NCBI GenBank assembly: GCA_937900945.1
Contig: CALCGG010000137.1
Span: 1 to 50,610, forward strand
Reading direction: 5' to 3'
Length of the DNA stretch: 50,610 nucleotides
DNA from: an uncultured Sulfurimonas sp.
GTDB taxonomy: Bacteria; Campylobacterota; Campylobacteria; Campylobacterales; Sulfurimonadaceae
Positions 150 to 42,045 of the stretch are shown piece after piece. The stretch's first letter is position 1. The number at the start of each line of letters is the position of its first letter. The notes under the pieces were generated by a model. The model was given only the letters and a program-made list of their open reading frames with translations. It did no database searches and was not told the origin of the DNA. Position numbers and translations under genes: made by a program.

Positions 150-1055
150 TTAATTAAACCCGATTCTCTTTTTTGCGCCAACAAGCCAATAGGAGATAGC
201 TAAGCCCACTATTACAGCACCAATAATTAAAAGGTCTTCAGCTTTTTCAGAAGACAATGAATAAATCAATACTTTTCTTATAAGCGCCGCCATAGCCAAC
301 ATAATAAAGGCGCCTATAGCAAAACCTTTACCTTGAAGGTGTTCTATTTCCTCATGAATCAATTCGATAGCTGCCCATAAAACGAGTAAACTACCCAAAA
401 CAGTAAGGATACCTTTTTCTATTCCTATATCTGAAAAAAACAATAAATAAATATCATAAGCGAAAAGCCCAATTGCGAAAAATGCAACAAGAGCCAAAGC
501 CCCGGCAAGAAAGAAATTCACATAAGAGTTAAATTTTTTTAAACCAGCTAAAATTGTTTTCTCAAATTTTGATAAAGACAAAAACTTACTCAACTCTTCT
601 TCTCTATAAGAACTGGTAAGCACATCAAGATTCATATCTATTATTTTTTCGACAGCTCTGATTTCTTTAATATGTTGCTCTTTATTATCAAAATTTGTTT
701 CAATATTTTGCAAAATAAAAGTTCTTACAAAAGTAAAAGCAGAGTTTACATAGTGTGTCGGTAAACCGATTTTTACATGAATTTCACCTATTTTATACAG
801 GTGTGTAAAATACGATATGTCATATTTTCCACAAAAGAGATTAATAAACCACTCTTTTATTTTTTTGCGATGATTGGCAATGATATCTTTATTTTTTAAA
901 AATTGAGCAGTTTTACCAAACCCCCAAATATAATCGTAAAAGCCATCTATAAACTCATCTGCAAGTATTTCAATTCTCGGCTGCAAATTTTGTAAAATCT
1001 GGGACTCTTCATCTGTAAATTTGTAGTCTCTTTTTAAATTGTTATATTCTTGCAT
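150..1055 (-). CDS. Globin-domain sensor fused to PsiE-like membrane domain
   Basis: A 301-residue protein with two parts. Residues 1-160 look like a protoglobin/globin-coupled sensor domain; His93 in the context KIGEIHVKIGLP is the expected proximal haem ligand. Residues about 178-298 form four hydrophobic segments resembling the PsiE (phosphate-starvation-inducible E) membrane family. The likely role is a haem-based gas or redox sensor tethered to the inner membrane, but no output domain such as GGDEF or a methyl-accepting module is present, so the signalling route is unknown. It is the last gene before the window edge and is not in an obvious operon (65 bp from the nosL-like gene upstream). 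The domain reading is by pattern, not by search. Confidence 0.8.
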   Translation of the reverse strand: MQEYNNLKRDYKFTDEESQILQNLQPRIEILADEFIDGFYDYIWGFGKTAQFLKNKDIIANHRKKIKEWFINLFCGKYDISYFTHLYKIGEIHVKIGLPTHYVNSAFTFVRTFILQNIETNFDNKEQHIKEIRAVEKIIDMNLDVLTSSYREEELSKFLSLSKFEKTILAGLKKFNSYVNFFLAGALALVAFFAIGLFAYDIYLLFFSDIGIEKGILTVLGSLLVLWAAIELIHEEIEHLQGKGFAIGAFIMLAMAALIRKVLIYSLSSEKAEDLLIIGAVIVGLAISYWLVGAKKRIGFN

Positions 1056-1119: not shown

Positions 1120-1620
1120 TTAATTATTGTATTTAAAATCCTCTTTTGCCTTATCCAAAGCACCGTTAAAGTCCATTATCTCTCCGTCAAATTCAGCTTG
1201 AAAAGCTTTAGCATCATTCTTATTTAAAAAAGCGTATTTGCTGCTTTTGCTCATTGTCCCTCTTTTTTTACTGCCGACAACATAAAAAGCTTTTGATGCA
1301 TCTACAAATTTTAACGAAGTCACATCCACAACTTTTGGATTCTTAAGAATTATGCCCTGTTCAAAATGCTCTTCAAGGCAATGCAAAGAACAGTATTGGT
1401 AATTTTTTCCATTTTCCTCTGCACTGTGGCTGGTTTTGTAATATTTAACCAAATCCATTCCACACATATGGCAATACCTTTTTTCTTTTCCATCTTGGAT
1501 TAAAACAGCTTGACTTTCATTTACAGATTGAAACATTGTTGATGGAATTTGCATACTTTTTTGAGAACTACAGCCTACTAAAATGAAAAAAACTATAGCG
1601 CCAATAAATACTTTTAACAT
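1120..1620 (-). CDS. NosL-like lipoprotein
   Basis: A 166-residue predicted lipoprotein: the signal peptide ends in a lipobox LVGC with Cys17. The core holds CHMCGMDL (Cys50, Cys53) and a second cysteine pair, CSLHC, as in NosL-family copper(I)-binding proteins. NosL normally helps deliver copper to nitrous oxide reductase, but no nos genes are in this window. A stand-alone NosL-like protein here may handle copper for another periplasmic enzyme. It is divergent from the thioredoxin-Bat operon, with a 70-bp shared intergenic region. Confidence 0.8.
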   Translation of the reverse strand: MLKVFIGAIVFFILVGCSSQKSMQIPSTMFQSVNESQAVLIQDGKEKRYCHMCGMDLVKYYKTSHSAEENGKNYQYCSLHCLEEHFEQGIILKNPKVVDVTSLKFVDASKAFYVVGSKKRGTMSKSSKYAFLNKNDAKAFQAEFDGEIMDFNGALDKAKEDFKYNN

Positions 1621-39204: not shown

Positions 39205-42045
39205 ATGCGCCTTTTGAACCTTTTCTCTCCTGCCGTTGCAATGATGAGCAGTATGAAATATCCTAAAAAGCTCGCCTTGGCGACAGCGGTATTTTTTCTC
39301 CCTTTTGTGCTGTTTTTATATCTGGGTTACAATTATATTTCAAGTGAATCCCATTCAATAAAGAAACTTCAAGCCGGATTGGACTATCAGCAAAGTATCA
39401 GATATTTTTTTCAGTATATTCCGCTCGAACGTGGGATGATTACAGCCGTCCAAGAAGGGGACAACTCCTATAAAGCAAAAATAGAAGAGAACTTCAAAAA
39501 TATAGAATTGGCGATAGAAGCTGTTGATGCCTTGCCCACACCAGCACTTTCTCTTGTTCCTGAATGGAAAGAGATTAAAACTGAATGGCGGGCACTCCGA
39601 GACGGGCTTTGGGAACGCCCATCAGAGGAAAACTACCGCAGACATACGATACTAATCGATAAGATTCTGTTGCTGGTGCGCTACATCGGTGATGTTTCCT
39701 ATACAATCAATGATTCAGACCTAAGCATTTACCAGCTTGTCCAGATTCTCAGCGATCATATCCCAGCTCTCGCTCAGTATACTGGAATGGGAAGAGCAAT
39801 CGGGACAAGGGTGATTTTGAAACAGTCAATGACCTTTGATGAAAAAAAAGAGGCTACAATCCTCTATGGAAAAATTCGTTCCCATTTGGACAGTATCGTC
39901 CATCAAAGCGCCGTCGTCTGCAAACGCCATCATGAGATATGCTCTACAATTACGCCGTCAATTTCAGCAATACAAACAGATGTAGATAATTTTTCAAATC
40001 TTTTTACAACACAAATTCTCAATACCGATCATTGGACGATTCGTTCCGATAATTATTTTCAAGATACAACCAATACGATTGACACCTATTTTAATGCCTA
40101 CGATACCCTTTCAGCCTCTCTTCAAACCTACATGAATGACAGGCTTGCCAAATTAAATCAGCAAATGATTATCGGAGAGGCCCTCGCTTTAATAGTGCTA
40201 GCGTCTATAATTTATTTCACAATTGGGTTCTATCTAGCATTTATTGGGGTTCTTGATGAATTACTCGGAGCAGCCCGTTTAGTCTCTTCAGGGGAATATG
40301 TAGTCCGTGTTCCCATCACAACTAAAGATGAAATGGCCGATATTTCCCACGCATTTAACGACATGACCAAGAAAATTGAACAATCATTTTCTTTTTTAAA
40401 GAGCTACAAAAAAGCGGTTGATGCCAGCACTATCCTCTCCATTACAGATAAAGAGGGAAATATTACCTATGTAAATGATCAGTTTTGTCTGACCACAGGT
40501 TATACACGGGAAGAGCTCATCGGACAAAATCACCGTATTTTCAAAGATGGCAACACACCTGAAGATGTTTATCGGCTCATGTGGAAAACTATTCTTGATA
40601 AAAAAATATGGTCGGGTAGTTTAAAAAACCTTAAAAAGGACGGCACGCCTTACTATGCTGATTCAACCATTACCCCTATTTTAGACGAAACAGGAGAGAT
40701 TGTTGAGTTTGTTGCAACAAGACATGACATAACCCAACTTACCGTTCAAAAAGAACAGCTCCTCCATCAGCTATACACTGATTCCCTGACACAACTCCCA
40801 AACCGGACAAAACTTTTAGAAAATATGAATTCAATAAAGGAACCTGTCTTGTTTCTTGTTAACATTGATCGTTTCGGCGAAATTAACGATTTTTACGGTA
40901 CGGAAACTGGCGATGATGTCTTAATTGAGATGCGCGCGAGTATCTCCTCTAGTCCTATCCCAAAATGCTTGACTCTGTACCGAATTTATGCGGACGAATT
41001 TGCTTTAATGTGTGAAAAAAGCTGTATTGGTGAGCACTCATACGAAGAGATAGCAAGATCGTTGCATGACCATATTGAAGCACAGCCTTTTTTCGTAAAA
41101 AATAACACGGTGATAATCAAAGTAACTATTGGTGTGGTAGTAAACCCCTCTTCCGCTCAAGATGACACCCTGACAACGCACCTTCTGACCAACGCCGACA
41201 TGGTGCTGCGCTATGCGAAACAACATGAGAAGGATGTTGTTATACTTCACGATACCGGTATGCTCAAAAATGAGATTGCACATAATATTGAATATATTGG
41301 GAAAATAAAAGAGGCGATTGCCTCGGACCGGATTGTTCCTTTCTTTCAGGGAATGATAGAGAATCATACTTTTCAGGCTGAGCCTTATTATCAAAAGATT
41401 ATCGGAAATTCTCTGAGCATTCCAACCAAGTATGAGTGTCTAATCCGTCTGATAGATTCTAATGGCAAAGTCATCTCCCCTTTCTTCTTTTTGGATGTTG
41501 CAAAAAAAGCAAAACTGTATCCTCAGCTGACACGAATCATGATTGATAAAACTTTTTCAATTTTTGAACACAATACATACGAATTCTCCATTAATCTCTC
41601 TGTAGAGGATATTTTAGACAAAAAAACAGTTCAGTTTATACTCGATAAACTCGAGCACTCCGGAGTCGCGAAACAGGTTATCTTTGAAATTCTAGAATCC
41701 GAAGGAATTGAAAACTTTGAAGAAGTACAGCAGTTTATAATGAAAGTCAAGCAGTGGGGAGCACGGATTGCCATTGATGATTTCGGAAGCGGATATTCAA
41801 ATTTCGCTTATATCCTCAACTTACAGGTTGATTTTATAAAAATCGACGCATCCTTGATAAAAAATATCGATAAAGACGACAATGCCCGTATCGTTGTCGA
41901 GACGATTGTCGCCTTTGCCAAAAGACTTGAAATTCAGACTATCGCCGAATTTGTTCACTCAAAAGAAGTATATGAGATTGTCAAAGAAATTGGTGTCGAT
42001 TTTTCGCAGGGCTATTATTTCCATGAACCTGCACAAACTTTATAA
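39205..42045 (+). CDS. Sensor with HAMP, PAS, degenerate GGDEF and intact EAL domains
   Basis: A 946-residue protein. Two membrane helices (about 28-46 and 325-348) flank a periplasmic helical sensor resembling the nitrate/nitrite-sensing (NIT) type. HAMP (about 350-395), PAS (about 402-515), GGDEF-like (about 525-680) and EAL (about 690-940) follow. The GGDEF site reads RIYADEF, so cyclase activity is unlikely. The EAL domain keeps its active-site set: ECLIRL, SINLS, IDDFGSGYS, DFIKID and SQGYYF. A c-di-GMP phosphodiesterase is likely. It is monocistronic and divergent from the molybdoenzyme operon; its composition seems slightly less AT-rich than its neighbours. Confidence 0.88.
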   Translation: MRLLNLFSPAVAMMSSMKYPKKLALATAVFFLPFVLFLYLGYNYISSESHSIKKLQAGLDYQQSIRYFFQYIPLERGMITAVQEGDNSYKAKIEENFKNIELAIEAVDALPTPALSLVPEWKEIKTEWRALRDGLWERPSEENYRRHTILIDKILLLVRYIGDVSYTINDSDLSIYQLVQILSDHIPALAQYTGMGRAIGTRVILKQSMTFDEKKEATILYGKIRSHLDSIVHQSAVVCKRHHEICSTITPSISAIQTDVDNFSNLFTTQILNTDHWTIRSDNYFQDTTNTIDTYFNAYDTLSASLQTYMNDRLAKLNQQMIIGEALALIVLASIIYFTIGFYLAFIGVLDELLGAARLVSSGEYVVRVPITTKDEMADISHAFNDMTKKIEQSFSFLKSYKKAVDASTILSITDKEGNITYVNDQFCLTTGYTREELIGQNHRIFKDGNTPEDVYRLMWKTILDKKIWSGSLKNLKKDGTPYYADSTITPILDETGEIVEFVATRHDITQLTVQKEQLLHQLYTDSLTQLPNRTKLLENMNSIKEPVLFLVNIDRFGEINDFYGTETGDDVLIEMRASISSSPIPKCLTLYRIYADEFALMCEKSCIGEHSYEEIARSLHDHIEAQPFFVKNNTVIIKVTIGVVVNPSSAQDDTLTTHLLTNADMVLRYAKQHEKDVVILHDTGMLKNEIAHNIEYIGKIKEAIASDRIVPFFQGMIENHTFQAEPYYQKIIGNSLSIPTKYECLIRLIDSNGKVISPFFFLDVAKKAKLYPQLTRIMIDKTFSIFEHNTYEFSINLSVEDILDKKTVQFILDKLEHSGVAKQVIFEILESEGIENFEEVQQFIMKVKQWGARIAIDDFGSGYSNFAYILNLQVDFIKIDASLIKNIDKDDNARIVVETIVAFAKRLEIQTIAEFVHSKEVYEIVKEIGVDFSQGYYFHEPAQTL

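Follow-up and report, generated by a model that had tools for sequence, protein, structure and literature searches.

What does a haem globin do when it is joined to a PsiE membrane domain? The question is raised by a gene near the start of contig CALCGG010000137.1 (GenBank assembly GCA_937900945.1) from an uncultured Sulfurimonas sp., of which positions 1 to 50,610 were analysed as a whole and are called the window here. A preliminary description, made from the sequence alone, took the product for an unusual pairing of a haem-globin part containing His93 with a four-helix PsiE-like part, lacking a GGDEF, kinase or chemotaxis output, that may couple oxygen or NO sensing to a membrane function. 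The PsiE membrane family is common among bacteria and has no activity assigned to it in the literature searched; its fusion to a sensor with measurable ligands (NO, CO, O2) offers a direct handle on it. Here, we describe the domains, relatives, haem pocket, membrane domain and genomic setting of this gene.

Domain architecture and family membership

The gene and its parts are as follows:

150..1055, reverse strand: globin-PsiE fusion gene, 301 aa, ATG at 1055, stop at 150 included (open reading frame list, Pfam scan and 36 related loci)
594..1052, reverse strand: Protoglobin / globin-coupled-sensor domain, residues 2-154 (PF11563, phmmer match to 2w31, Foldseek)
522..593, reverse strand: linker helix from the globin to the membrane domain, residues 155-178, lying between the two Pfam matches, helical in the predicted model and net positive
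171..521, reverse strand: PsiE-family membrane domain with four predicted transmembrane helices, residues 179-295 (PF06146, genome family scan match at 171-521, conservation, hydropathy)

A domain search (hmmscan against Pfam), the check suggested with the preliminary description, places both halves above their cutoffs, with PF11563 (Protoglobin) at residues 2-154 (96.4 bits, cutoff 25, E 2.3e-27) and PF06146 (PsiE) at residues 179-295 (78.5 bits, gathering cutoff 23.9, E 6.4e-22), and confirms the 301-aa reading frame as a Protoglobin joined to a four-helix PsiE membrane domain, as had been described. No other Pfam match exceeds its curated cutoff and no NCBIfam match exceeds its own. The missing output was also correctly noted, as GGDEF, EAL, kinase and MCP domains are all absent from the Pfam matches with E up to 1. 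Relatives 76-87% identical over nearly the full length were found in 34 of 36 fetched loci, the remaining two being cut by contig ends, and the match is thus far beyond chance. A family scan detected no other protoglobin-family gene in the window's genome.

Of the solved structures, the closest in sequence is the globin domain of GsGCS, a globin-coupled sensor from Geobacter sulfurreducens (2w31; phmmer E 1.6e-40, ungapped over residues 5-159), which is also the top Foldseek match (2w31_A) of the predicted model. The globin part of the globin-PsiE family has already been crystallised from Geobacter. The C-terminus of GsGCS is said to be a transmembrane domain; the passages of open-access literature that mention this protein concern its globin domain alone, and, since the G. 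sulfurreducens gene itself was absent from the genome sample, the PsiE tail is documented for its relatives. With the 2w31 sequence as query, the genomes around one relative (first 48, later 141) yielded globins of this type in 34 of the 48 (E <= 1e-20) and related globins, up to 67% identical, in 86 of the 141, which belong to one order (E <= 1e-50), with the PsiE tail checked in the fetched loci only. There, relatives 64-67% identical to the 2w31 globin carry the same PsiE tail at the same length; both domains are confirmed by Pfam in L091 (67% identical to 2w31), L062 and L035, and the other fetched relatives align across both. The window's protein shares 39% identity over 297 aa with L075, whose globin is 64% identical to 2w31. 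The 301-aa protein is a member of the GsGCS-type family of membrane globins, putative globin-coupled sensors, that is widespread in bacteria.

Other known proteins share one of the two halves. HemAT, DosC, BpeGReg and AfGcHK have the same protoglobin-type sensor fold but act through chemotaxis, GGDEF or kinase outputs (assignments that go partly beyond the molecule names of the structures), whereas the candidate output here is PsiE. Protoglobin-EAL proteins of Campylobacterota (L051-L055) have a related globin, 37-45% identical, and differ in carrying an EAL output, assigned by Pfam in L051 and by length and similarity only in the other four. Stand-alone PsiE proteins (PF06146), such as that of Escherichia coli, one of 6 of 14 control genomes with PsiE, have the same membrane domain but no globin, and the set His234, Glu235 and His239 is a feature of the Campylobacterota-type fusion.

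The pairing is not the unusual one first supposed, being the regular architecture of the GsGCS-type family. Full-length globin-PsiE genes occur in 14 of 298 sampled Campylobacterota genomes (of 18 that matched, four have just a globin followed by a different C-terminus) and in 50 of 395 genomes from the phylum of the Desulfuromonas metagenome-assembled genome that holds L035 (53 matched, three over one domain or part only). Among 148 PsiE matches (E <= 1e-6) in 297 genomes of that phylum, 39 lie inside globin-PsiE genes by hand count; together with the carrier numbers, this marks the pairing as regular. The other 109 lie outside the globin-PsiE genes found there, and in this sample most PsiE domains occur without a globin. 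No relevant report of a protoglobin or globin paired with PsiE was found in the open-access literature searched. Other sensors fused to PsiE were sought in ten long or selected open frames judged by eye, without a family scan; what extended beyond PsiE resembled short tails or read-through of GC-rich sequence, and a second domain was recognised only in L123, which holds a globin-PsiE gene already among those found in the phylum of L035.

Haem pocket

Pocket residues were compared in 91 aligned sequences, left from 102 extracted sequences after removal of 11 (two short extractions, five of globin-EAL type and four same-gene duplicates). They comprise 45 Campylobacterota and 46 others, with L035 placed among the others; at least two pairs are identical proteins, so the counts below are of sequences and not of independent events. 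The F8, E11 and B10 labels follow the HemAT/GsGCS alignment and numbering. Three codons stand out:

777..779, reverse strand: His93, predicted proximal haem ligand at F8 by alignment to GsGCS and HemAT
870..872, reverse strand: His62, E7, predicted distal haem ligand, His in 45/45 Campylobacterota sequences
936..938, reverse strand: Tyr40, B10 of the haem pocket, Tyr in 45/45 Campylobacterota and 44/46 other sequences

The globin part with His93, a putative haem binder, is borne out by the PF11563 match and by the alignment of His93 as proximal histidine, invariant in all 91 sequences (45/45 and 46/46); Tyr40 is kept in 89 of 91. GsGCS, which aligns without gaps over residues 5-159, likewise has its proximal His at F8. 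The distal side differs: according to a passage from PMC4476040, the distal ligand of GsGCS is His66 at E11, whereas the window's protein has Ile66 at E11 and its conserved distal His, His62, at E7. Across the alignment the E7/E11 pairs are His/Ile (47), His/Leu (17), Leu/His (19), His/Val (2), Met/His (1), His/His (1) and neither (4), so that exactly one distal His, at E7 or E11, is found in 86 of 91 sequences. Since a single distal His is so consistently kept, the haem of the window's protein is expected to be six-coordinate, with His62(E7) as the predicted distal ligand. We treat the E7-His protein as a putative sister subgroup within the GsGCS-type family, distinct from GsGCS itself. With one distal His retained almost throughout, this swap between E7 and E11 offers a clean natural experiment on six-coordinate haem.

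The PsiE membrane domain

Hydropathy places four hydrophobic segments near residues 181-199, 215-233, 246-264 and 275-293, in keeping with the four-helix part first described, and the predicted model has four long C-terminal helices at moderate-to-weak confidence (mean pLDDT 68.3, pTM 0.46). Basic residues cluster before the first and after the last segment; these positive flanks suggest that both termini lie inside and hence that the globin is cytoplasmic. On average, the alignment columns of PsiE are better conserved than those of the globin, both among the 45 Campylobacterota sequences (0.912 vs 0.837) and among the 46 others (0.694 vs 0.585), and Asn180, Asp201, Glu213, Lys214, Gly215, Trp227, Glu231 and Arg260 are each kept in at least 90% of the two groups combined.

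These values bear on the possibility, raised with the preliminary description as a ground for rejecting it, that the C-terminus is ordinary helical anchor sequence, here holding the globin at the membrane. No catalytic motif was recognised in the PsiE part, as such an anchor would have it, but because PsiE is conserved above the globin in both groups, the C-terminus appears to be the best conserved part of the protein and not an ordinary anchor. Its conserved charged and polar residues, which conservation and hydropathy place in or beside the transmembrane helices, also speak against an anchor, as does the occurrence of PsiE mostly without a globin, and we regard this explanation as very improbable.

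The same conservation is compatible with a redox- or ligand-gated transporter or channel, in which transport would run through PsiE itself and be gated by the globin: the membrane domain is conserved above the sensor and keeps the charged residues Glu231, Arg260, Asp201 and Glu213. However, no PsiE transport activity was found in the portions of the literature searched, and no solved structure matches the PsiE part at E <= 0.001 (phmmer, Foldseek), all six Foldseek matches at this threshold being globin domains from a model that is too weak for fold matching of the membrane part; we consider a transporter or channel improbable. A metal or di-iron site at Glu231-x-x-His234 was considered and rejected, as His234 and His239 are not retained outside Campylobacterota.

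Starting from the observed domain composition, family membership, pocket residues, membrane-domain conservation and genomic context (below), we favour a sensor, in which the cytoplasmic globin would sense NO, O2 or redox state and drive a membrane output through PsiE, and we give this reading about an even chance of being right. Its inferred steps (haem binding, six-coordination, topology, ligand, signal path and output) would run as follows. The globin, facing the cytoplasm, would bind haem b via His93, and His62 at E7 would probably close the sixth coordination site in the ligand-free state. NO or O2 binding, or an altered redox state of the haem, would displace the distal His and shift the globin helices, and the movement would travel via the linker helix (155-178) into the conserved four-helix PsiE domain as the output. 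The most likely role would be to tune a membrane or respiratory function under NO or O2 stress; the originally suggested coupling of O2 or NO to a membrane function remains plausible.

Gene neighbourhood and inheritance

The gene directly upstream in the window is:

1120..1620, reverse strand: NosL-family lipoprotein-like gene, 166 aa, same strand as globin-PsiE at a gap of 64 bp (PF05573, E 5.4e-14)

It is possibly an operon partner of globin-PsiE in the window's genome only, as no NosL homologue lies within two genes of globin-PsiE in the other 49 loci. This genome has no NorB match at 1e-60. A conserved operon in Campylobacterota was rejected, since gene order varies across most loci.

By names read by eye (Pfam-checked for NosL, two Crp, NorF as COX4_pro, and the L016 globin), oxygen, NO and ROS genes recur near globin-PsiE and include nor genes (L003 and L005, farther off in L024; norE/norF among those within two genes), Crp/Fnr regulators (L022, L024), cydAB (L013), single-domain globins (L016, L031), a truncated haemoglobin (L026), a hemerythrin (L025), an FprA-like flavoprotein (L035), SodB (L029, L046, L047) and a peroxiredoxin (L017). 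With these and the NosL of the window as the 16 query proteins, 15 of 50 loci showed an NO, O2 or ROS gene no more than two genes away, compared with 10 of 948 control positions, which came from 60 stretches (20 kb each) in six carrier genomes; this enrichment is inflated by picking the query list post hoc from the neighbours themselves, and several loci are related. The binomial p for 15 of 50 is 5e-6 against a background of 8%, which is a guess and not a measurement. NorB (query from L003) was found in 13 of 14 carrier vs 34 of 284 non-carrier Campylobacterota genomes (Fisher p 1e-10); within the window's own genus, the link is weak (6 of 7 carriers vs 6 of 11 non-carriers, p 0.32), and the phylum-wide link may therefore reflect lifestyle alone. 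In many genomes outside Campylobacterota (L062-L083), ndk lies upstream and often rlmN downstream, and in the Geobacter-like group globin-PsiE has hemH opposite it on the other strand (names by eye); the ndk and rlmN neighbours say nothing about NO, which counts against an NO reading. Overall, the gene context supports, and does not prove, an NO/O2 stress setting. Regulation of FNR/CRP type was not borne out, as the best upstream sites in 46 loci mostly score no better than mononucleotide shuffles and no such box stands out upstream of globin-PsiE.

These neighbours (nor genes, cydAB, fprA and other globins), and the predicted bis-His haem, would also suit a globin that works as an enzyme tethered to the membrane and not as a sensor, removing NO by dioxygenase or reductase chemistry or handling electrons at the membrane. 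PsiE would then serve either to dock it at the quinone pool or an oxidase or to exchange electrons with one of these. Bis-His haem is common in redox globins. Yet the Pfam scan contains no reductase domain, no quinone site or second haem site could be recognised by eye, and conservation of the membrane-domain residues His234 and His239 does not extend beyond Campylobacterota, so that we think such an enzyme unlikely.

Vertical descent of the gene is doubtful, as its identity barely tracks host kinship. Identity to the window's protein is 78-85% in its own genus and, beyond it, 87% for a second genus of that family and 77-85% across other families. PurL behaves differently, with 88-91% inside the genus dropping to 71-75% across other families; for IlvC the corresponding values are 88-92% and 78-89%. 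The globin-PsiE tree mixes families, with 18 of 46 inner branches well supported and many weak. Horizontal movement within Campylobacterota is likely on these comparisons. The copy in L035 is Campylobacterota-like and 76% identical to that of the window, and the best IlvC and PurL matches in its genome reach only 35% and 31%, respectively; this copy would therefore represent either a cross-phylum transfer or a misplaced contig.

A broader and rather tentative proposal, which we rate as somewhat doubtful, is that PsiE is a genuine, unrecognised membrane effector whose input is a six-coordinate globin, that the output was kept as the distal His shifted between E7 and E11, and that in Campylobacterota the gene would form a self-contained NO/O2-responsive module moving between lineages beside NO and oxygen detoxification genes.

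Two further observations concern the surroundings. An HPP-family membrane protein is encoded close to globin-PsiE in L002, L004, L033 and L047 (PF04982 tested in L004). The window also encodes, at 39205-42045, a 946-aa PAS/GGDEF/EAL-like protein (domains by eye), 38 kb from globin-PsiE, and a near relative of it lies directly downstream of globin-PsiE in L003 and L005.
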